Made by a program: the position numbers and the translations under genes. The notes beneath the pieces are model-generated. The model saw only the letters and a program-made list of their open reading frames with translations, had not been told where the DNA came from and made no database searches. Shown one piece after another: positions 8,926 to 30,268 of a stretch of DNA of 64,000 nt; within the stretch, counting starts at the first letter, position 1, and the number at the start of each line of letters is the position of its first letter. The DNA comes from Hypericum androsaemum (taxonomy: Eukaryota > Streptophyta > Magnoliopsida > Malpighiales > Hypericaceae). The stretch spans positions 960,001-1,024,000 of the forward strand of contig OZ023192.1 of NCBI GenBank assembly GCA_963995505.1, in the 5' to 3' direction.

Positions 8926-8984
8926 CACACACATTATGTACTCTTACAGCACTCACTAGGAGAACTGAATTGGCAACTCCAACC

Positions 8985-11020
8985 ATGGAGCTCCTGTCCC
9001 TCCAACCCATCATCTTCCTCTTCTTCTTCATCATCTTCCTGTGGCTCTACCTCTCCTTGGTCCCTTCTTCCAGGAAGAAACCAAATACCAAAACAGGTTT
9101 CAAGAACTACCCTATTCTAGGAACCGTCCCAGAGTTCCTGAAGAACAGGCACCGGTTCCTGGACTGGACAACCGACGTCCTGGCCCGTTCCCCCTCCAAC
9201 ACCTCCGTGTTCCACCACTCCGGGAAGCTCCACGGCGTGATCACGGCGAACCCCGAGGTGGTAGAGCACATGCTGAAGACCAACTTCGAGAACTACCCGA
9301 AGGGCAACAGGTTTCCCAACAGAACCTTCTTCTTTTTATGTTCGGATTTGAACTCTGAATTTAGACTCCGGATCTCTTGTCTCACCTGGAATGTTTTGCC
9401 CGGCAGGTTCACAACGCTTCTTCAGGACATGCTGGGGCGGGGGATCTTCAACTCGGACGGGGAGATGTGGAAGGTCCAGAGGAAGACGGCGAGCTACGAG
9501 TTCAACACCAGGTCCCTTAGAAACTTCGTCATGGACAATGTCAAGGTCGAAATTTCATCCAGGTCTGTGGCATAATTAATAAGTAATTTTACGATGATCT
9601 TTTGATAATACAAAATTATAATATTTTGATCATTTATTTTTCATTAAAATTTAAGAGAGATATAAAATTCGAAGATAATGAAGGGTGGATTGTAAAATAA
9701 TACGATCGGATTCGTAATAATGACCGGTGGATTTTTCGGCAGTGTAGAATGACCGGTGGTAATCTGGAATTAAGTTTTAATATGGTATTTCATATGTGAT
9801 CTGGTTGGCTGAAATTTCTCAGCGTTTAACACGAGTTATGAGATATTTGTACATCTAAAAGTTCATCCATTCAAAATTTACAACTACTTTATAATCTTCC
9901 TATTTTATCCAAAATATTAAGTTAATAACAATTATTATATCATACTTTTACTTAGCGATTTGGTAATTTTTAATACAGGTTAATTCCAATCCTTTCCAAG
10001 GCAGCCAAGACCGACCAGGTCGTGGACCTGCAAGAAATATTGGAGCGTTTCGCCTTCGACAACATTTGCAAGCTCGCCTTCAACGTCGACCCCGGTTGCC
10101 TCGGCGGCGACGGGACCTCCGGCGCGGAGTTCATGCTGGCGTTCGAGACCGCCGCGACCCTCAGCTCGGGAAGGTTCATGTACGCCTTCCCGAGCGTTCA
10201 GAGGGTCAAGAAGTTCTTGAACGTTGGAGCCGAGAAGGACCTCTCCCGATCGATCAAGATCGTCCACGAGTTCGCGGACGAGATCGTTCGGTCTAGAATG
10301 GAAGCCAGGACGGAGATGAAAGACGAGGACTTGCTCTCTCGGTTCATGGCGAACCGAGAGAGCTCGCCCGAGTTTCTCCGGGATATTGCCATCAGCTTTA
10401 TCCTGGCTGGCAGGGACACGACGTCCTCTGCCCTGACGTGGTTTTTCTGGCTGCTGTCTGTGAACCCGGATGTTGGCAGGAACATCTCGAACGAGCTCGA
10501 AGTGATTCGAGCTCGTAGTGGGAAGATCATAGGAAGCAATTACAGTCTCGAAGAACTGCGAGAAATGCAGTATCTGAACGCTGCCATTTCGGAGTCCATG
10601 AGGCTGTATCCCCCAGTAGCGGTGGACACCAAGGCCTGCAAGTACGACGATGTGCTGCCCGACGGTACGCAAATCGGGAAGGGCTGGTTCATTACCTACC
10701 ATACGTACGCGATGGGGCGGATGGAGAGCATATGGGGGATGGATTGCAAGGAGTTTCGACCCGAGAGGTGGCTCGAAGACGGGATTTGTAAGATGGAGAG
10801 CCCTTTTAAGTACCCTGTATTTCATGCTGGGCCTAGGATATGCCTTGGAAAGGATATGGCTTTTATACAGATGAAGAGCATAGTTGCTGCATTAATGGAG
10901 AGATTTGACGTTAATGTCCAAGATAAGGAGAAGTGTCCTGAGCATTTGTTGTCTCTAACTCTCAGGATGAAGGGTGGTTTGCAGGTCAAGGTCAAGGAAA
11001 TTGGAGACAATTGCCATTAG
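8985..11020 (+). CDS. CYP94: Cytochrome P450, CYP94 family
   Basis: Exons 8985-9310, 9407-9562 and 9979-11020 join at AG|G sites into 507 codons plus TAG, the normal CYP94 length. ATG 8985 sits in a good context (CCAACCATGG). Visible parts in order: an N-terminal ER membrane anchor, CYP94 hallmarks (KNRHRFLDWTTDVL, GIFNSDGE.WK.QRK), oxygen-binding helix I motif AGRDTTS at about 304-310, ExxR (ESMR) at about 366-369, PERW near 420, and the heme loop FHAGPRICLG with the ligand cysteine near 449. CYP94 enzymes omega-hydroxylate fatty acids or jasmonoyl-isoleucine; the sequence looks closer to the CYP94A/D side than to the jasmonate-oxidising CYP94B/C enzymes, but the substrate is inferred. It is convergent with the transporter gene. 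From memory, most CYP94 genes have few or no introns, so two are unusual. Confidence 0.93.
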
Positions 11021-11468: not shown

Positions 11469-14318
11469 TTAAACTCTCTCTTTTATAGAGAGCTCCTGCA
11501 ACTCTACCGAATTCCTAACATGATCATCACCATCTACCTCTTCCTTAGCCTCATCCAAAGGCTTACTAGTATAAAACCAAGCACAAAGGAAGAAATACCC
11601 AAGATTCACAACTTGGAGAATGGTCACAAGCCAATAATAATAATCCAACTTCCCAATGTTCAAGTTCCTATCAGGCAACCAATTGTCCCTCTTCCCTGAG
11701 AATTGGTGAACCATAGACACCATAAGAGTGCCCAAGTAGTTCCCCGTGGCATTCGCAATCCAAACCATGGCGATGGCGATGCTCCTCATGCTCTCGGGCG
11801 ACTGGTCGTAGAAAAACTCCAATTGCCCAACAGCTAAGAAGAGCTCCGCCACCCCATGGAAAAAGAACTGAGGGACCAACCAAAAAACACTTATTGGTAT
11901 CATGGCAGTTGGCTCATCCAACAGGTGGTGATCCGCTGCTGCAGATTTCCTCTTCGCTTCCACAAGAGCAGAAACCTGTTGATAAATTTTCGAGAGTCAG
12001 TACGGTGCTGATAGAAACAGGTGTTAGCACCGGAACTTAGCACGAACCATGGTGGAGAAGATGTTGAAGAACATCCCAACTCCCATCCTCTGCAAGTTGG
12101 TGACTCCCAAAGGGTTGCCAGTGAGCTTCTTGGCTAACGGCACGAGGAGGCGTTCGTAGAGAATTAGGCCGAGGATCAAGGTCAGGTTGTTGAAGATGGA
12201 GAGGCTGGCTGGTGGGACTTGGAAGGAGGGGGAGATCAGGTGGCGGTCCATGGTCCGAGCCTGCTGGATGGTGAATGTGTGCTGGTGCGAGTTCGCGGTA
12301 ACGTAGAGGATCCCGGCCGACCAAACGGGAAGCAATCTGATGAAGGATTTGAGCTCTTCCACTCTGTGGACCGAGGCTAGCTTCCAAAAGTTTGGTGGGT
12401 CACTGGAATGTGTCATTTCCTGATGATCTCCTTCTTTGACTATTGCAGCCTTGTCAATCCACCTGAGAAGAATCACATACATGTTTATATCGATTTAAGA
12501 GCGGATATCGGATAGTCATAGACACGAAAAATAAACACAGGATTGTTCTTACTTGAGGTCATTAGTGTGTAGAAGCCTTCCGTTGATCGAAATGGCCTTA
12601 TCAAGTTCATTATTATGGTACAACAGATCAGGATCCTCAGGAACCACCTCCTTTCTCTTCCTCAATGCAGCTACAATGACCTGAACCAACCTAACCAAAA
12701 CAAATTCACGAGGTCTGCGGCTCGAACCTCATACGGGGAAATTCTAAAATTTGACTTATCAAAAAACACCAACCTAACCAAAGGGCTCCCAGCTGGCTTC
12801 TGCTTTTTGTAAAGTGGAGAGCCACACACAAAGGCTATAAAGCTGAAGAACAGGGCAACAGTTGGTATCCCAAGGCCCCAACCCCATCCCACATTGTCTT
12901 GAACATAAACCACAATGGTCAGTGCACCTAGCTTGGCCACTCCCATGCAGAGGTAGTACCAGTTGAAGAAGTTCCACCTCCGGGAGGCCACGCTGGACCG
13001 GCGCATGTCAAGCTGGTCCGCTGCGAAGCTGACCACGCAGGGGCGGATGCCACCCAGCCCCGCCGCGATGAGGAGGAGGGAGAGGTAGAGCACTCCCGTT
13101 TGGGAGGTCGATGCTTCAATGCAGTTCACTTGTGTTGGACATGGTGGAGGCTGGAGTGACTTTAGTAGTGCTGTTGTTGTGATGCTGATTAGTCCCTGAA
13201 ATTAAATTAAAAAGTTTGTTTCATCAGCTTTTGTGTTACATTGGAGGAATTAATATATTTCCAAATTGAAATTAAACTGATTCCATAACTCTCTTGAGTC
13301 ACAAAATAATTGTGGATCTTATATTATTTATCTTATTATTAATCAGAGTTCTCGTATATAGTTAGAACGAAGTTCACAAACTACAAACATTAATTTGTTT
13401 TAAATAATCAGATTGAAGTTATAGCATTATCATTTTCAGGAATCGGTATATCTTCGAAATCCTGATCATCAATTAAGATGAAGCTATAGCATCATCATTT
13501 TTAAGAATCGGCATATTCATAGTTGTGTCAATAAAAAAAATTATTGGAGTGATTGAATCATAAATTTTTATCAATTTTTGTCTAATCCGAATTGGCAATT
13601 GAGTAATATTATTTATTTCATTCGTTATTAGATAACTTTATGCCTTCTTTCACCCACTCAAAAAATGAAAAGGAAAAAGGATTATTTGGATCCTGTATTA
13701 ATCAATGAATTAGAGTCAAAAATAAGAAGACAAATAAAAGAATAGTTTCGTGGGAGCAGAAAAAGAGGGAACCAACCAGTTCATAGATAATAGAGGCGAC
13801 GAAGATGGTCCAGTATCGGCCGGCGAAAGAGTCGGCGACCAGAGCACCGAGCAAGGGCGTCAAGCTGGCCGTCCCGTCGAGGTTGGTGATGACGTTGGAC
13901 GCCCTCACCAGCGGCATGTTCAGCTCCTGCGTCAAGTAACTTATCATGTTCGCATGGAATCCCACCGTCGCGAACCTATCACACACTTCCGTCGCTGCAT
14001 GCAAACGGATAAATTCTTGAGTGGAACTAATCTATCGTATTTAACTCAAGAGTGTAAGTCATTAAGATTAAGATCAATGAAAATGTAATAATAAATTTTT
14101 AAGAGAAAAACGAACCTAATCATAATTTTAAGACATGCTAAAATTTTGTTATTCCGATATACTAAGTTGTACTTACCGAGAATGAAAGGCATTGTTTTGA
14201 TGCCTCCAAGCTCTGAGCTCTTTTTCCCATCGTCTGCCTCCTCTTTCTTCTTGATCTCCTCCTGCTTCGATTCTTTGTTCGAGTTACTATTGTCCTGCGA
14301 CTCCCGGCTGGCCTCCAT
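11469..14318 (-). CDS. NPF3.1-like: NRT1/PTR-family (NPF3-like) transporter
   Basis: Exons in coding order are 14318-14177, 13994-13777, 13195-12774, 12690-12553, 12462-12048 and 11975-11469. They close to 613 codons plus TAA, the usual NPF length. The family are 12-helix, proton-coupled plasma-membrane or tonoplast carriers of nitrate/nitrite, peptides or hormones. Seen: a charged Ser/Lys/Glu-rich N-terminus, FATVGFHANMISYL in helix 1, the FNWYY motif (RRWNFFNWYYLCMG), the long charged loop before DKAAI, VEELKSFIRLLPVW, and LEFFYDQSPESMRS in the C-terminal half. These match Arabidopsis NPF3.1, a nitrite/gibberellin carrier, closely; the substrate is inferred. The ExxE(R/K) signature of helix 1 reads ATEVCDR here, so the first Glu is replaced by Ala or Thr. 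The third exon is split by an extra 83-bp intron (see 12685-12782). Confidence 0.92.
12685..12782 (-). mobile_element. Short insertion acting as an intron, with 15-bp target duplication
   Basis: The identical 15-mer ACCAACCTAACCAAA (plus strand) is present at 12685-12699 and 12768-12782, around 68 bp of non-NPF sequence. On the coding strand each copy contains AG|GT. Splicing from the upstream copy to the downstream copy removes exactly 83 bp (12691-12773) and restores an uninterrupted NPF reading (PLVRLVQV). Without splicing the frame shifts and meets a stop soon after. The insert contains GGTTCGAGCC on the coding strand, like the pol III box B of tRNA-derived SINEs; that origin is inferred. 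Confidence 0.85.
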
Positions 14319-15153
14319 TTTTTTTATCTCATAAGGAGATTATGTTATTTCGGTGATTTGATGTAATTTTTAGTGTAGGATGTTCAAATGTATGTAAGAA
14401 CCCAATTATACTTATAATCCAAGTATAAAAGGATAAAATCCAACCAGGATTCGTCCATTATAAGGAATAGCGGCTGCTTGAGGAGCAGAAAAAACAGAGA
14501 GAAGTATCTGTCTTTAACAAGTGCATCATTAGAAGAAGAAAAAACATAAGGTTGTTTGGTCTCAATATATGTTGTTCTAATCATCAATATCCGATAAATA
14601 CTAATTTCCAAATACACGATTTAATGTTTAGCATATTTAAAATGCCGGAAAAATAAATTCAGATGTTGGAAGCAACGAAGATCCTTTTGTTTTATTATTG
14701 ACCATAAAGAAGTTTGAATGAAATTATAACGATTAATATTGTACGAAAATTCAGATTCAATTCTTAGCCAGTGTATATTTGTGTAAATGTACTTTAACAA
14801 GAAATATTAGTACTCCATGATTACTTTTACCACTAATAATTTCCAATGTGTGACTTTCACTTGTCATAAACTATTGCTAGATTTGTCATGGCTTTCCTAT
14901 TTATTGGTGTTTGAAGTACTTACTATGTTCTAACAACCATTCTGATGTTTGTCTCAAAGTTTGTTTTTGATTAGTAGATTTTTTTATACCATGATAATGT
15001 CAGGGTTTGAACCATGGACCTCTAACATATTTATAACGCCTTGTGCCATTGTGTTACAAGCCCTTTGGCAATTCTGATGAGTTTTATTCACTCATAAATA
15101 CATTAATTACATTTCTTGAGTCGATAGTCTAGTAATAAAGTAGTTTTGGCCAA

Positions 15154-19399: not shown

Positions 19400-22300
19400 C
19401 TTGTTTCACTGTGTTAGATACAACTGACACAGTTTCTCCCTCCTGCCCTGAAAATACATGGCAGACACCACATTACTGTTTTGTGCAAACAAGATGCAGA
19501 AAAACTTGTTGCCATGCAGAGAGAACCATGCTAGAAAATTTGTATGTTGAAAGTAAGGGCGCAAAGGCAAACCTTCAAGGTTGATGGGCACATAGACAAA
19601 AGTCAATCGCCGCCCAACATCCTCTGTGCTCAGGGTATAGTCAGATGTTCCAATCAAAACTGACACGAAGTCTCTGTGGAGAAGCACCGAAGATCAAGAT
19701 ACAGCAAATTAAAAACTCTAGTGAGAAGAGAATTTATTGAACTTGTTCTATATTCGTTGGTACTTACAGCAGCTGCCATATATACAGCAGAGAGGGCTGC
19801 CAAGCCACTCAGGATTTTAATAAAGAAAGAGCAGTTGCCAGACACAGTAGGCATGGGAAAAAAGCTGACAAAGGCATCTACTTTTACAGGTATGGACATA
19901 AACTTAAATAACAGACTTATAGTACAGTTGTACTGCCCTAGGACTAAATTAATAACTGAATGACTAGGAAGGAGAGAGCAGCAGTGCTTGAACTTCCCGT
20001 TGCAGAATTTGTGGGTCAGTTAACCAAGGTTAGAACAAAAACTTACTGAGATAATTCAACACACTCACACTTTAAGTGGTTAATCCAACACTGGTTAATC
20101 CAACACAAATACATATGAACTAATATAAATAGCATGATCAAAGGTCCACAGAAACAGGAAAATAGTTGATGAAAGGAAAAAAATGAAAGAACCAGAACAA
20201 AAATCATGATGTCTAACTTATGACCTCCATGAAGCAGGTACCCATTGAGGGACCTTTACAATCACAAAATTGAAGTTCAAACAAACAGAATTATAATAGC
20301 AACAAAAGATATTATCCTTAAAAAACAAATCAGCAATATAAAAAGGGAATTCTTGACAACAAACTTTGTTGAAAAGAGAGATGTTGCACTAACCCAGTGT
20401 CCTTGTTCTCGAGCAACCACTCAAACTTGCTGGGGCCCTCTCTTCCTCCAAAGTAATCACCCGTGCCTCTTATGGTATTCCCTTCAACAGCATCTCCAAC
20501 AATACCAACATTGCGAACACATGGAGGAGCTGTCAAATTATGGAAACTTTAGCTGCTTGAATCATAGTTTTTTTTGTCAAAAGAGAATAACCGAGAAATC
20601 AGTAAGAGCCAAGCAAGTTCCACAAAATACTCTAGTCAAAGAAAGAACAACAGGGTATCCTTGAAAAGGTAACCATACAGAGTAAATTGGGGTGGAAGAA
20701 GACACATTCTAAGCTCAAAAGCACCAACACACCTGCTTTGAAAAAATTAGTGTACTTATACTGAGGTTCTCCCCTGGCACCTTCCTTGGTGACGGGTGTG
20801 TACATAAAACCCAAACTAGAATCTCAAAAGCATCAACACACCTGCTTTGACAAAATTAGTGTACTTATACTGAGGTTCTCCCCTGGCACCTTCCTTGGTG
20901 ACGGGTGTGTACATAAAACCCAAACTAGAATCTATGTCATCAAGGGTCAGATGATACTCTTCATCTTCCGCTCCCCCTATAACCACCGGACTACCATTCC
21001 ATCTTCTCCTCAGCCAACTGGAGAATGAAAAAACAACAGTAAAGCTGAATTCGTCTTATTTGAAATCATGATTACATGCACTTGAAGAATACTTTGAAAT
21101 GGTTATCTACAGCCAGAACCGTTTCAACTTACCTAGCAACACCTTTGCCTGGTGTCCCGCCACACCATGCAACATGCGCAAGGCCTTTGATAACATTTCC
21201 TTCCACTAGCTCTCCACTAACTTCAAGACTTGTCACTTTTGGAATTCCACTTCCTTGCAAATTAACAATAATTTTATGAGGAACCGAGAAAAAGAGCACG
21301 GGAAACATTCTGGTTAGCCCCATGCATCAGAAAAGATTGCAATGTTACGCACTCTGATGTATTACAAGGCCTTGTCAATCGTAGACCTGGAGCTATTTTA
21401 ACTTGAACTATGGCCGAAAATCTATAATTTAGCAGCAAGAAACAAGTCCAGCTTAAATGGGGGCACTAGTTTATTGCCCATTTTAAGTTAGAACCTACCT
21501 CGTGAAACTCTTCCTGTTATGGCAAAAACAGCAGGATACTCTGTATCCCCAAATAAAGGGGTACATTGCACTTCTAGGAACTTGTTGATATCTCCATGCT
21601 TTGGAAAGTACACCTGTAACAGCTCAGAGCTATCAGTGATACAGGAAAAGGCAACACTGATTGGCCATTTGCAGGACAAAATTGCTAGTGTGCTTCATGA
21701 AGTGGGTACCTCTTCATTGGCATCAGGAATGGCAGCAAAGTTTGCAAGTAGTCTCTCCCCTATAAACCACTGATATCTTAAAACTATCTGCTGATCAACT
21801 CTGGAACTGCCAGATTGGAAAAATGTAAAATGGCAGCAGCAAGCATCTTCTTCAGACGGTTTATCAACAGATGCATCCTTCAGCAAATAGCCAGGCGGGA
21901 AGTTCTCTTTCCATTGCTCATATAGAAAGTTAAAAGTTGAATCTGTCCAATGTACAAAGTAATTTTTTCAGTGTGTAGCTATCATTTGAGTCAAGATTAT
22001 CTATGCAATAGAATTGAAGCTCGATACAGTAACCAATACCAACAGATATCTTTTTTCTTATAATTAATCTTAGGGAAAAAACCTGCTGCACTTTCAGGAC
22101 GACAGAATTCCCAACCCTCTCGAAGACACAAGGCTGTGCATGGTGGATACCGACTCGCAATTGAAAATTCCTCTCTGGACAGATCTACAGACACGTTATT
22201 AGAGTACACATCAGAAGAGTCCATAAGTTAAACATGACAGAGGGAGAAAACAAATAAAGCAGCTGTGTTCAGGTTTCATTAAGAAGCAAATCAGTGCATG

Positions 22301-24413
22301 GAAAAGAATGGCACCTCTATCATTGAACTTTTTCAATGTAGGACCAACAAGCAAAACGGTAGCTGCTTCCAAATGGGGCATCTTAAGGATAGGATTCTCC
22401 TCCACCCGCAGATGCTGCAGCGTGACAAGGTAGTATACTAATCATCAGCATGTCATCCTACAGTAACACTTTGTGCATGTTTCATCAAAGGTCAAGAACA
22501 TGAAGTGAGGCAAAATCATACAGTTAAATGTATTAACAGCACTTGCATGATACAGGGACCTAGGTTCTGATGTGCCCATTTCATGAGAGTATATCGAAAG
22601 AAAGACAAGGTAGTTCTTTCAATGAGCTCCAGACAAAATTATCATTCTTGTACTTCGAACTAACCTCTAGAGCTGGCAAATGCGGGAACCCTTTAAGCGT
22701 GGTTATTTTGTTTTTGCTTGCAGCTAGAACCTGTGGAGGAAACAATGAAAGAAGTTAGAAGATACAAAGGCCATCATGAGAAGAAACAAGAATCATATCT
22801 TTTTGCAGCAACAAACCTGCAATCGAGGTTGACTTGCCATGGAAAGTGTTTTCAGTTTATTTTGAGCAACTGACAAAAACTAGACAGGAAAAGGTGAAAA
22901 CCAAGCATGTCTGTTTTCTGCATATATTTAGAACAAGAAGCTCCACAAAACAGCAATACTGATGACGAAATCTACACAGTTCGCAGTTGTTACCTCCAGG
23001 TTAGGTAGCTGAGGAAGGCTCGCAAGAGACGTGATTTGATTCCCGGCAAGATAAAGTTGCTGAAAGTGGTAAGACAGTCAGCTGGATATATGGGTTGCTT
23101 GCAAGCCATATTATCCCAGTAGCCACACAATCTAAGACAAAAAGTTTGGAGAACAAACCTGGAGGAACTTGCAATTCTCGAGAGGTTCAAAACCTGGTCC
23201 CTTAAATTCATTGAAGCTCAAATCAAGGACCTGGTAATCGCCAACAACATTAATGGATCCATTTGTCACTTTTATGATAAATATAAGAAAATATTTAAAT
23301 AAAAGCCATCAAAGGGTTGCACCCATGAACATCAAGAAGATCATTTATATTCCTCTACAAAATCCACAAAGTGTAGAACGGTACTAAAACATCTTCCTAT
23401 TCACCCAAAAGACAAAAGTCTATATTTTCTCAGAAAGAGATATTTCCTTTCTCTCAAACACCCTCCTATTCACCCCAAAAAACAAAACCCTCCTATTTCT
23501 TTATCTTCATGTGGACCCAAAAGATAGCAAACGGATGGACCATCTCTACACATTTCCTCTTACTGTAACAAAAAAAAAACCCACAAGAAGCCATTAGCTT
23601 CTTCCTCACATCCTTACTCGACATCTACTCGATCTGTGATATAGGTTTAGATAACTAAAATGTGATAAATGCTTCCCAAAATGAAGATGCTGACTCAAAA
23701 ATGACTAATGAATTTACAAACCTTGACTTTCTTCAGTATCTCAATTCCTTCCAATGCTGATAATAGGTTGTCACGGAGGTCAACAAACTGTCAAAATGAG
23801 AATCGACTAAGCTTTTTTGAAGATGCAACTTTGTTTCATAAGTCAAAGCACATGAATGAGCAGCATAATCCTAGGCCAACGCACACTTACTTCAAAATTT
23901 GGTGACAAGTTCAAGCCTCTGGCATTGAGAGTACGAACTCTGTGACCCCGAAGATTTAATCTCTGATCACAAATGAAAAAAAAGAAGAAAAAGATAGGTT
24001 CACAAATGAACAAGAGAACTGGATCTTAAAAATGATGGGGATCAAGCGGATGGAGAAGAAACCTTGGATATTGTCTTCCTACTCACACTACTTGCCACTG
24101 AAGTAGAAGAGACCCTTTTAATAGATGACGACAACGAAGATGTTGACAATGCTGGCTTAACTGCAGGCTTCCTGACAGCCACTGTCTTACTAATATCAGA
24201 CCTGGTTGATGTCCTCGAACTCGTATCTGCAGAACTCCGTGTAGAAGCTACAGCTTGTTTGGAAACATTCAAGCTTGAATCAGAAACATCGCGGGTTTCA
24301 GTTTTCTTTCTGATGGAATCATGGCAGGCACCAGAAGAGGACCGACTCTTCTTATGGGCTTGACGTTTTCTAATGTGTTCTTCTTTCCCCGATGAAACTG
24401 CTTCGTCCTCCAT
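19400..24413 (-). CDS. AIR9-like: AIR9-like microtubule-associated protein, N-terminal half
   Basis: AIR9 binds cortical microtubules, the preprophase band and the division site. Exons in coding order: 24413-24063, 23962-23891, 23787-23722, 23230-23159, 23059-22994, 22879-22817, 22730-22665, 22414-22315, 22184-22083, 21942-21710, 21613-21499, 21253-21133, 21017-20842, 20529-20394, 19673-19573, 19447-19400. All have canonical borders and the phases fit. The product has a Ser-rich basic region (1-117), leucine-rich repeats, one per short exon (about 118-286), then about three to four A9-type repeats (GDAVEGNTIRGTGDYFGG, SDYTL.TEDVGRRLTFVY). Full AIR9 is about 1,700 residues; here only about 629 are present and no later exon is seen before 18063. 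The last exon's donor, CAAG|GTATT, is the expected AIR9 site, but reading through it leads in frame into the F-box ORF. Confidence 0.85.
20720..20937. repeat. 109-bp tandem duplication of an AIR9 exon end
   Basis: The 3' end of the exon 21017-20842, with its splice donor, is repeated 109 bp further on: CCTGCTTTG falls at 20732 and 20841. The second, intronic copy differs at a few bases. It offers a decoy donor near 20733. Confidence 0.85.
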
Positions 24414-25004
24414 GTCCTGATCAGCGCTTGTTCGCACGGGATACCTACAAAAGCAATAAAAACTGTTACTCAACGTCAGATATTCGACGGGACATTGTTC
24501 TTCAACTAAGAAGAGTAGCAGAATACAGAGTTTCGTCAAACTAAACAAACATCAAGTCAGTTGAAACCACCAGCTCCCTCAATCCATAAAAAGAAAAAGA
24601 AGCAACCACTCTCTCTTTTTTTTACAAACTAAAATTTAGGCAGGTTGGACTAAACCCCGGGACTGGACGGCATTGGGCTTTATTTCTCTCACAAGCAAAG
24701 TTTTGCCATTTTTACAAGGCGTGGGAATTGACCCACCCACTACTGGAAACGAGATAGAAAAAAATAAGCCTCAATTACTCTACTGGAGCTCATGCACAAG
24801 AACAACCACACGCACTCTTTTAAAACTAGAAATTCAAAGAAAACCCCAACATAAACAAATGAATAAAAAAATTTTAAAAAAAAAGCTGAAATTAACCCAT
24901 ATTGGACCTCCACCAGGTTAACTTGGAAACTTCACTTATTCTTAACCAGATAGAAAAACCCTTTCGACCAAAACAAAGTGCAAACGCCAATACATAATTT
25001 AAAA
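22252..25004. repeat. Tandem segmental duplication, copy A
   Basis: 2,753 bp repeated head-to-tail as 25005-27757. It covers the AIR9 region from upstream of the coding start to the intron after the eighth coding exon. The translated exons are identical in the two copies. The one difference I noticed is T versus A in the A/T run near 24875/27627. The junction lies in an A-run (about 25001-25007). Confidence 0.9.
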
Positions 25005-27757
25005 AAATAAAGCAGCTGTGTTCAGGTTTCATTAAGAAGCAAATCAGTGCATGGAAAAGAATGGCACCTCTATCATTGAACTTTTTCAATGTAGGACCAA
25101 CAAGCAAAACGGTAGCTGCTTCCAAATGGGGCATCTTAAGGATAGGATTCTCCTCCACCCGCAGATGCTGCAGCGTGACAAGGTAGTATACTAATCATCA
25201 GCATGTCATCCTACAGTAACACTTTGTGCATGTTTCATCAAAGGTCAAGAACATGAAGTGAGGCAAAATCATACAGTTAAATGTATTAACAGCACTTGCA
25301 TGATACAGGGACCTAGGTTCTGATGTGCCCATTTCATGAGAGTATATCGAAAGAAAGACAAGGTAGTTCTTTCAATGAGCTCCAGACAAAATTATCATTC
25401 TTGTACTTCGAACTAACCTCTAGAGCTGGCAAATGCGGGAACCCTTTAAGCGTGGTTATTTTGTTTTTGCTTGCAGCTAGAACCTGTGGAGGAAACAATG
25501 AAAGAAGTTAGAAGATACAAAGGCCATCATGAGAAGAAACAAGAATCATATCTTTTTGCAGCAACAAACCTGCAATCGAGGTTGACTTGCCATGGAAAGT
25601 GTTTTCAGTTTATTTTGAGCAACTGACAAAAACTAGACAGGAAAAGGTGAAAACCAAGCATGTCTGTTTTCTGCATATATTTAGAACAAGAAGCTCCACA
25701 AAACAGCAATACTGATGACGAAATCTACACAGTTCGCAGTTGTTACCTCCAGGTTAGGTAGCTGAGGAAGGCTCGCAAGAGACGTGATTTGATTCCCGGC
25801 AAGATAAAGTTGCTGAAAGTGGTAAGACAGTCAGCTGGATATATGGGTTGCTTGCAAGCCATATTATCCCAGTAGCCACACAATCTAAGACAAAAAGTTT
25901 GGAGAACAAACCTGGAGGAACTTGCAATTCTCGAGAGGTTCAAAACCTGGTCCCTTAAATTCATTGAAGCTCAAATCAAGGACCTGGTAATCGCCAACAA
26001 CATTAATGGATCCATTTGTCACTTTTATGATAAATATAAGAAAATATTTAAATAAAAGCCATCAAAGGGTTGCACCCATGAACATCAAGAAGATCATTTA
26101 TATTCCTCTACAAAATCCACAAAGTGTAGAACGGTACTAAAACATCTTCCTATTCACCCAAAAGACAAAAGTCTATATTTTCTCAGAAAGAGATATTTCC
26201 TTTCTCTCAAACACCCTCCTATTCACCCCAAAAAACAAAACCCTCCTATTTCTTTATCTTCATGTGGACCCAAAAGATAGCAAACGGATGGACCATCTCT
26301 ACACATTTCCTCTTACTGTAACAAAAAAAAAACCCACAAGAAGCCATTAGCTTCTTCCTCACATCCTTACTCGACATCTACTCGATCTGTGATATAGGTT
26401 TAGATAACTAAAATGTGATAAATGCTTCCCAAAATGAAGATGCTGACTCAAAAATGACTAATGAATTTACAAACCTTGACTTTCTTCAGTATCTCAATTC
26501 CTTCCAATGCTGATAATAGGTTGTCACGGAGGTCAACAAACTGTCAAAATGAGAATCGACTAAGCTTTTTTGAAGATGCAACTTTGTTTCATAAGTCAAA
26601 GCACATGAATGAGCAGCATAATCCTAGGCCAACGCACACTTACTTCAAAATTTGGTGACAAGTTCAAGCCTCTGGCATTGAGAGTACGAACTCTGTGACC
26701 CCGAAGATTTAATCTCTGATCACAAATGAAAAAAAAGAAGAAAAAGATAGGTTCACAAATGAACAAGAGAACTGGATCTTAAAAATGATGGGGATCAAGC
26801 GGATGGAGAAGAAACCTTGGATATTGTCTTCCTACTCACACTACTTGCCACTGAAGTAGAAGAGACCCTTTTAATAGATGACGACAACGAAGATGTTGAC
26901 AATGCTGGCTTAACTGCAGGCTTCCTGACAGCCACTGTCTTACTAATATCAGACCTGGTTGATGTCCTCGAACTCGTATCTGCAGAACTCCGTGTAGAAG
27001 CTACAGCTTGTTTGGAAACATTCAAGCTTGAATCAGAAACATCGCGGGTTTCAGTTTTCTTTCTGATGGAATCATGGCAGGCACCAGAAGAGGACCGACT
27101 CTTCTTATGGGCTTGACGTTTTCTAATGTGTTCTTCTTTCCCCGATGAAACTGCTTCGTCCTCCATGTCCTGATCAGCGCTTGTTCGCACGGGATACCTA
27201 CAAAAGCAATAAAAACTGTTACTCAACGTCAGATATTCGACGGGACATTGTTCTTCAACTAAGAAGAGTAGCAGAATACAGAGTTTCGTCAAACTAAACA
27301 AACATCAAGTCAGTTGAAACCACCAGCTCCCTCAATCCATAAAAAGAAAAAGAAGCAACCACTCTCTCTTTTTTTTACAAACTAAAATTTAGGCAGGTTG
27401 GACTAAACCCCGGGACTGGACGGCATTGGGCTTTATTTCTCTCACAAGCAAAGTTTTGCCATTTTTACAAGGCGTGGGAATTGACCCACCCACTACTGGA
27501 AACGAGATAGAAAAAAATAAGCCTCAATTACTCTACTGGAGCTCATGCACAAGAACAACCACACGCACTCTTTTAAAACTAGAAATTCAAAGAAAACCCC
27601 AACATAAACAAATGAATAAAAAAATTTAAAAAAAAAAGCTGAAATTAACCCATATTGGACCTCCACCAGGTTAACTTGGAAACTTCACTTATTCTTAACC
27701 AGATAGAAAAACCCTTTCGACCAAAACAAAGTGCAAACGCCAATACATAATTTAAAA
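25005..27757. repeat. Tandem segmental duplication, copy B
   Basis: Second copy, on the promoter side of the AIR9-like gene. Its outer edge falls in an A-run (about 27754-27759), directly before sequence that is not duplicated and probably holds the transcription start. Confidence 0.9.
25068..27166 (-). CDS. Duplicated 5' exons of the AIR9-like gene
   Basis: Coding exons 27166-26816, 26715-26644, 26540-26475, 25983-25912, 25812-25747, 25632-25570, 25483-25418 and 25167-25068, each exactly 2,753 bp from its twin. They encode the Ser-rich region and leucine-rich repeats. This copy lies next to the unduplicated upstream sequence, so a transcript probably starts here. Its last exon ends in phase 1. 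Joining it to the twin's first exon (acceptor before 24444) would shift the frame, while skipping the whole twin and joining exon 22184-22083 keeps the frame. It is therefore either the working 5' end with copy A skipped, or a dead 5' duplicate. Confidence 0.6.
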
Positions 27758-29172: not shown

Positions 29173-30268
29173 TCATTTACTGTCTTTGTTGCCTAACCGG
29201 CGCTTGTAGCGTTTAAGTACAGAAACCAGATTCCCCTTTCCCTTCCGGAAGGCGTCGCCAGCTGCAGTTCCCGATCGACCTTTTCGACCAGATATGGCGA
29301 CCTTGACGTCCTCGATCAAGTCAAGAAGCGTTGATGCGTTTGTGCATTTCCCTCTTTCAGGTGTCGAGGCAGGCGGTAGCATACTGTTTGAAGGCTGTTG
29401 CTTGTGCGCAGCGGATAATTGAAGGCAGAGACACGGGGGCATTGGCGTTCGAGGCTCGGAAAATGCTGGTTCTACGATCCCCTAAGATTCCAATGCATAA
29501 ACAAACATCTCATTACACAAACAATGTACAGAGTCTTGCAGCAGAATGGCCGAGACGAATACGCTCGTGCATTACCTGAAGACGATTTAGAACGTAGGTA
29601 TACTTGCCCCACAACTCCGGCCGGCTTTCCATCAATGACAAGTCAAGAATCCGGCGAATGCACCAAACCCCGAAGCTTACTATCAAATCCTTTTTCCACA
29701 AACATCCTTCTCCACAATGAGGAATGGTTCCGGACTTGTCGCGATACAGAGGATCACCAGATTCGATACCACAACTCATCTTTGTTGTTTCAAATTCATA
29801 TAGACACCTCTCCATTGCCGCCACACGATCAATAAGATCCTCATCAACTCCACCATTTTGCCTAAACAACCAATCAGATCCTTCAAGCCTTAGAAGTTGA
29901 AGAATACAGCACCTGAAAGACTCGAGAATTGTAGCTTCTGCTGCATCTACTGGATTGCAAGTTTGAGGAGAGTTTAACGATCCTCTTTCACGACAACCTC
30001 GTACGTAAGCATCCAACATCTTCGTGTATGGCCGATACGATCCTCTTTCACTAATTGGCTGTCCATGGAGATCATACAATTGTCCCCAGAACTCATCAAG
30101 AAGAGCCGCTAATTGGCTTCTTGATGCACGCCCCAACCCTGCTAATCTTGAGCTACTTCCAAGAACTACTCTCGATATTTCTTCATCATCACGTACATCA
30201 TTGACCAAAGACGTAACTGGTGGTTGATCTTCTTCAATGGTAGTCAAGTGTTGTTCATGCAACCCCAT
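29173..30268 (-). CDS. EIN2-like: Compact EIN2-like protein, C-terminal domain only
   Basis: Two exons, 30268-29576 and 29481-29173, joined at a canonical intron, give 333 codons plus TGA. They match the end of ETHYLENE INSENSITIVE 2, the ER protein whose cleaved C-terminal part moves to the nucleus to turn on ethylene responses. Seen: DDQPP-like start (about 12-20), [18 protein letters not shown] (about 53-71), [20 protein letters not shown], then [20 protein letters not shown] and [13 protein letters not shown], the PCLCLQ block, and the nuclear-signal region LKRYKRRL at about 320-327. EIN2 is normally about 1,300 residues; the NRAMP-like membrane domain and several hundred residues of the middle are missing. 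The frame has no stop and splicing is intact, so it could be expressed as a soluble protein. It could equally be a truncated duplicate. The first Met is chosen as the only one ahead of the homology. Confidence 0.82.

Follow-up and report, generated by a model that had tools for sequence, protein, structure and literature searches.

Our analysis of a 64-kb stretch of DNA from Hypericum androsaemum (hereafter, the window), which belongs to an assembly of 385 Mb in 29 contigs, indicates that an NPF3.1-like gene carries what, judged from its sequence, is a gained spliceosomal intron of 83 bp, with both splice sites lying within the target duplication of a 68-bp insert. That the intron was made by an insertion and is spliced, whatever the source of the inserted DNA, we consider probable, on the basis of the geometry of the repeat and the splice sites, the rarity of that geometry, the co-linear protein and the unbroken exon in the listed relatives; the unusual donor GTTGGT and the variation in intron number in other NPF subfamilies were counted against it. 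The gene and the parts of the intron are arranged as follows.

11469..14318, minus strand: NPF3.1-like (PTR2/POT) gene; six-exon model of 613 aa, with PF00854 and homologs named NRT1/PTR FAMILY 3.1
14318-14177, 13994-13777, 13195-12774, 12690-12553, 12462-12048 and 11975-11469, minus strand: exons of the NPF3.1-like gene in the gene model
12691..12773, minus strand: predicted intron 3, 83 bp, GT...AG, phase 2; its excision restores the NPF3.1 protein gap-free, and it is absent in 120 of 120 listed relative fragments
12768..12782, minus strand: upstream 15-bp copy of the putative target duplication, TTTGGTTAG|GTTGGT (9 nt exonic, 6 nt intronic), which gives the donor
12685..12699, minus strand: downstream 15-bp copy of the putative target duplication, identified by repeat comparison, which gives the acceptor
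12700..12767, plus strand: 68-bp insert containing a tRNA-like motif and an A-run; it may be part of a SINE, truncated at its 5' end and lying antisense to the gene

The assignment to NPF3.1 was supported by both similarity and clustering with NPF3.1 proteins, as NRT1/PTR FAMILY 3.1 is the name of many listed homologs of the 613-aa protein, PF00854 is present and the tree agrees. The tree (FastTree, midpoint-rooted) comprised 117 sequences, namely, the query and 116 of 120 listed homologs, the other four, of 700 aa or more, having been excluded from alignment and tree. In it, the sister of the query is a Hevea protein (support 0.96), and the two are nested in a group of nine that also contains Turnera (two), Populus, Dovyalis, Erythroxylum and two further entries; we take these five genera to be Malpighiales. 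A pattern search of viral_contigs for relatives gave 18 matches, none of which encodes one.

On the plus strand, the direct repeat is ACCAACCTAACCAAA, with 15 of 15 nt identical between the copies at a spacing of 83, and it directly flanks the 68 bp that lie between them. Read on the minus strand, the intron is GTTGGTG...TTTTGGTTAG, and at each of its splice points 9 nt of the repeat lie to the left and 6 to the right; AG|GT is the only combination of donor and acceptor that can be read in register inside the repeat. The junction is in phase 2, where AG|G completes an Arg codon and the spliced protein would run GSPLV-R-LVQVIVAA. It was co-linear with the family, 116 of the 117 aligned sequences (query counted) being of equal length over a 31-residue stretch and the single exception having one extra residue further on. 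If the 83 bp are left unspliced, the frame shifts and a stop is reached at 12671. Thus, the GT-AG ends go together with exact restoration of the frame, and the preliminary description was correct in stating that the 15-bp repeat is perfect with AG|GT in both copies, that splicing restores the family sequence exactly and that retention shifts the frame.

To judge how rare this geometry is, we counted, over the two strands of the window, the possible GT...AG pairs with a spacing of 60-199 bp. Among 53,282 such pairs, an in-register repeat of at least 15 nt occurs in four, of which one is the 83-bp intron and the other three belong to one 109-bp tandem array, and one additional pair has 14 nt in register. 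The array, at about 20,725-20,934, has identical runs of 82 and 17 nt. At six other measured introns of the NPF gene and its neighbour, the in-register repeat extends over 1-6 nt. In simulated windows (n = 5), no direct repeat of at least 13 nt outside low-complexity sequence was present at a spacing of 40-250; direct repeats of at least 12 nt, however, number 60 in the real window, where many belong to tandem arrays, and 0-2 in the simulated ones, so that the simulation understates real repeats and the count of GT...AG pairs is the better control. An intron can also arise by tandem duplication of an AGGT-bearing segment, a known route that includes a potato gene in the available part of the source (PMC4974935). 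We regard this route as extremely improbable here, as it predicts that all 83 bp were copied from neighbouring sequence, whereas only the 15 bp are repeated within 12500-12950, and a 131-bp region has no other match in the genome.

Absence of the intron from relatives was examined with a profile of exons 3 and 4 built from 8 sequences, with which a protein search gave 462 matches, the best 120 of which were examined; the protein collection holds many single-exon readings and served as a stand-in for gene DNA. Residue 261 was spanned gap-free in all 120 of these listed fragments; in this comparison, made at the protein level, the relatives show no additional residues at the position of the intron. 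Of the 120, 104 terminate precisely where the exon does (residue 306/307), and 81 of these 104 also start at 109-125, the exon beginning; 32 of the 81 have read-through residues upstream, and 21 have a Q, that is, a CAG acceptor read through, right before residue 121. The remaining 16 of the 120 are longer gene models or partial pieces. Because a spliced cDNA would continue into the next exon, the 104 exon-end fragments were read as unspliced, intron-free DNA, although some may have been cut at contig ends or derived from unspliced RNA. One fragment (P0165; 165 aa, residues 143-307), which stops at the exon end and is 90% identical to a Populus euphratica protein, falls inside the query's own subclade (support 0.99) in a tree that took in 67 of the 120 fragments.

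These results bear out the earlier statement that the exon is unbroken in the family, and an intron shared with relatives, which was to refute the gain, was found at residue 261 in none of the 120 listed relatives (of 462). They also make it highly improbable that the intron is an old ancestral one, lost elsewhere, with a repeat that arose by coincidence: none of the best 120 of 462 matches contains it or offers any point in its favour, and, one tandem array aside, 15 nt in register occur at no further GT...AG pair of the window. In the available parts of two family surveys, all NPF3 genes of apple have four exons, compared with six in the query gene, and the other apple NPF subfamilies have 2-7 (PMC6164405), and in cucumber, most NPF genes share three conserved intron sites, with 1-6 introns per gene (PMC10057324).

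Splicing of the 83-bp intron in the plant would be in keeping with its composition (40% T, 40% G+C) and with its length, which is near that of the conserved intron 4 (90 bp). Its donor, GTTGGT, is weak and departs from the usual plant donor consensus; intron 2 of the same NPF model, the position of which is taken to be conserved in the family, also begins GTTGGT. It is conceivable that the insertion is disruptive and is spliced inefficiently or not at all, leaving a null allele or young pseudogene in which clean excision is only apparent. The weak donor and the stop reached upon retention would agree with this, as would the seven near-invariant positions, out of 181, at which the query differs (across the 117 sequences, the median is 1 and the highest count 10). 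However, three subclade relatives also differ at 7 or 8 such positions; among the seven tabulated subclade members of the query, the differences number 6-8 in four and 2 in three, and the count is thus clear evidence neither of decay nor of a clean bill of health. Furthermore, AG|GT falls exactly within both copies of the repeat, the 613-aa frame is fully open apart from the intron, and the intron is T-rich and of a length close to that of intron 4. We therefore consider a disrupted gene unlikely and a gained, spliced intron the better reading. As to its age, approximately 11 free intronic positions of the repeat are identical, which, by computation, is compatible at the 5% level with a neutral divergence of up to roughly 0.24. 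The proposal that the event is recent, drawn from the perfect repeat alone, was therefore overstated. Judging from these comparisons, the gain can be dated no more closely than to some time after a Salicaceae-like relative had split off, because the closest listed homologs reach at most 69% identity over most of the NPF3.1-like protein and at most 73% over the region of exons 3 and 4.

Further predicted introns beyond the family patterns, which the preliminary description had missed, were encountered in the same gene and in its neighbour.

11976..12047, minus strand: intron 5 of the NPF3.1-like gene, the second extra intron, 72 bp, at residue 445/446, with 4 nt in register at its ends
8985-11020, plus strand: P450 gene (PF00067), modelled protein of 507 aa, which needs introns at 9311-9406 (96 bp) and 9563-9978 (416 bp)

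Residue 445/446 was gapless in 120 of 120 listed fragments (the best 120 of 1133 exon-5/6 matches), 42 of which start near the exon start. As intron 5 has only 4 nt in register, it is either older or differently made. The P450 gene is presumably CYP94-like. No stop interrupts the frame of the 96-bp piece (ORF 8970-9575), which could thus be retained; it also holds a box-B-like AGTTCAAATCC, antisense to the gene. Two neighbouring genes would have four introns beyond family patterns, of 83 and 72 bp in the NPF3.1 gene and of a predicted 96 and 416 bp in the CYP94-like gene; three of the four follow AG and one follows TG, and GT starts both the intron and the next exon in all. Elsewhere in the window, two identical 168-aa ORFs, 2753 bp apart (24042-24548 and 26795-27301, minus strand), are likely a recent tandem duplication, and an ORF at 29513-30268 (minus strand), which to us resembles the C-terminal end of EIN2, contains an in-frame 15-bp direct repeat with copies 60 bp apart. 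According to the parts of the literature available, the CYP94 genes of rice generally lack introns (PMC5764023), as do most of those of Medicago, where two CYP94 genes are exceptions (PMC8467197).

With regard to the source of the 68-bp insert, motif scans identified two stretches of interest.

12710-12728, plus strand: GAGGTC TGC GGCTCGAACC, tRNA-like, inside the insert
About 15067-14975, minus strand: SINE-like stretch in which box B, preceded by GAGGTC-NNN, lies 43 nt after box A and has A7 downstream; it contains the second GAGGTCNNNGGNTYRAACC copy, at 15022

The succession GAGGTC-NNN-T-arm is the order of variable loop and T-arm in tRNAs. At its 3' end on the plus strand, the insert reads CTTATCAAAAAAC, with six A and then C, and adjoins the second copy of the repeat. 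The plus-strand motif of the insert, GAGGTCNNNGGNTYRAACC, has two occurrences in the 64 kb, compared with about 0 expected (at most one mismatch), the motif having been chosen after the insert and the second copy had been inspected. A loose scan for box A and box B also matched two unrelated places. Around the 15022 copy, 123 bp are enclosed by a 9-nt repeat, CATCAGAAT (15079-15071 and 14947-14939), which may or may not be the target duplication of that SINE-like copy. Box A is absent from the 68-bp insert, which has the box-B-like sequence and the upstream GAGGTC; 5' truncation would account for the missing box A. Box B alone fits the opposite orientation, that of the gene, slightly better (1 versus 2 mismatches). 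In the available part of PMC8825457, plant SINEs have target duplications of 8-16 or 10-20 nt and tails of A or T; the insert has a 15-nt duplication but only six A and then one C before the second copy.

Searches for relatives of the insert gave little. The genome search with the 68-bp insert, suggested as the way to a parent family, found in the 385 Mb at E ≤ 10 nothing beyond the insert itself, very common words being skipped by the tool; as no dispersed copies were seen under these settings, the insert was not filed as a SINE. Nor does it form a family in the manner of Introners, as there is one copy and, at E ≤ 1, the insert matches none of the other three introns discussed here. When a 21-nt core of the insert was searched in the genome with 2-3 mismatches, 12 other sites were found (13 with the insert itself), which is close to the 7 of a backwards control, and to us these 12 look like coding sequence. 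Matches to a possible parent in the window were weak (best E 0.13), ARAGORN found no tRNA gene in the window, and no Rfam family reached its gathering score, three scans giving 7, 1 and 4 sub-threshold matches, including one at chance level (E 3.4). A 36-bp match of 80.6% to the 3' part of the insert in L002 (E 0.003 in 264 kb) has no evident box B upstream; it was rejected as probable A-rich chance similarity. Variants of the tail showed no clear enrichment in 264 kb, the insert itself being among the matches: observed and expected numbers were 2 versus 2.2 for TTATCAAAAAA, 1 versus 0.2 for CTTATCAAAAAA, 1 versus 0 for GACTTAT[CA]AAAAA, 4 versus 1.0 for [AT]CTTAT[ACG]AAAAAA, 7 versus 3.8 for TTATAAAAAAA and, in total, 4 versus 6.4 for five further variants.

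The terminal A-run, the GAGGTC-box B motif and the 15-nt duplication were counted for a SINE piece, whereas the single genome copy, the post hoc motif, the missing box A, the slightly better fit of box B in the orientation of the gene and the lack of a tRNA or Rfam match were counted against it, and we put forward a SINE origin of the insert tentatively, as a tenable possibility. The box-B-like sequence that had hinted at a SINE does exist and, when read on the plus strand, is accompanied by a tRNA-like variable-loop motif and a 3' A-run, but the genome search at E ≤ 10 gave no second copy of the insert. Likewise, the idea of a transposable element landing on a proto-splice site stands as regards the gained intron and its splice sites in a duplication, but the origin from an element lacks support from genome copies. 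The same gained intron could have formed without any mobile element, its 68 bp being filler that was copied or newly made when a staggered double-strand break was repaired by end joining; this account is opposed only to the SINE part of our explanation. That the insert alone was found genome-wide at E ≤ 10 would agree with it, as would the 72-bp intron of the same gene, which is without a long repeat. In the available parts of the sources, Daphnia neointrons are ascribed to the repair of blunt or staggered breaks (PMC4202315), and this route is among the known ones of intron gain (PMC3443670); however, the exon-intron repeats of Daphnia measure 4-12 bp (PMC4202315), and 15 bp fits SINE duplications better (PMC8825457). 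Repair also leaves the tRNA-like motif and the terminal A-run beside the repeat unexplained. We regard repair filler as possible, if somewhat doubtful.

Taken together, the intron may have arisen as follows. The empty site would have held a single TTTGGTTAGGTTGGT, and a staggered cut in the NPF3.1 exon at TTTGGTTAG|GTTGGT would have let the 68-bp piece of DNA enter. Fill-in of the stagger would then have duplicated 15 bp, thereby placing AG|GT in both copies, and the spliceosome would take its donor from the GT of the upstream copy and its acceptor from the AG of the downstream one, so that one repeat unit and the insert are removed and the mRNA is the same as before the insertion. Both the cut and the insertion might have been made by the machinery of a non-LTR retrotransposon, which would have brought in part of a SINE, truncated at its 5' end, in antisense orientation to the gene. 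It is uncommon for the birth of an intron to be observed while its molecular scar is still intact, and here the scar explains both splice sites and the preserved frame, which opens the proto-splice-site model to testing. In addition, with three further candidate gains within 4 kb, it would be worthwhile to count such events across the genome. That introns are being actively gained in this Malpighiales lineage, with 5'-truncated antisense SINE pieces as one source, is a quite unlikely proposition; if true, such a lineage would be, to our knowledge, the first land-plant counterpart of Daphnia or of introner-rich lineages.

This type of event is already known, and the NPF intron is an unusually clean new case. 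The insert in the rice catalase intron (Iwamoto 1998) is reportedly a SINE, and that in the maize Ds case (Giroux 1994) is said, per the title of the paper, to be a named element. Like the NPF intron, both are insertions turned into introns; for the 68 bp of the NPF insert, by contrast, the searches yielded no parent family. Both cases rest here on their citation in a review (PMC3443670), the available part of which names only Oryza and Zea among plants for introns from transposon insertion and presents a model in which AGGT at the transposon target gives both splice sites and leaves the mRNA unchanged. Introners can likewise recruit splice sites from the insertion site, both of them in Florenciella, but they form multi-copy families, some with duplications of 3-9 bp, whereas the NPF insert is a single copy with 15 bp; in the available part of that survey, they were found, as far as animals and land plants are concerned, in two groups, both of animals, and in no land plant (PMC9860276). 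Daphnia neointrons resemble the NPF intron in having direct repeats at opposite ends and an insert of unknown source, and, in the available part of the report (PMC4202315), their repeats are of 4-12 bp, whereas the NPF intron has a repeat of 15 bp, a tRNA-like motif and a short run of A.
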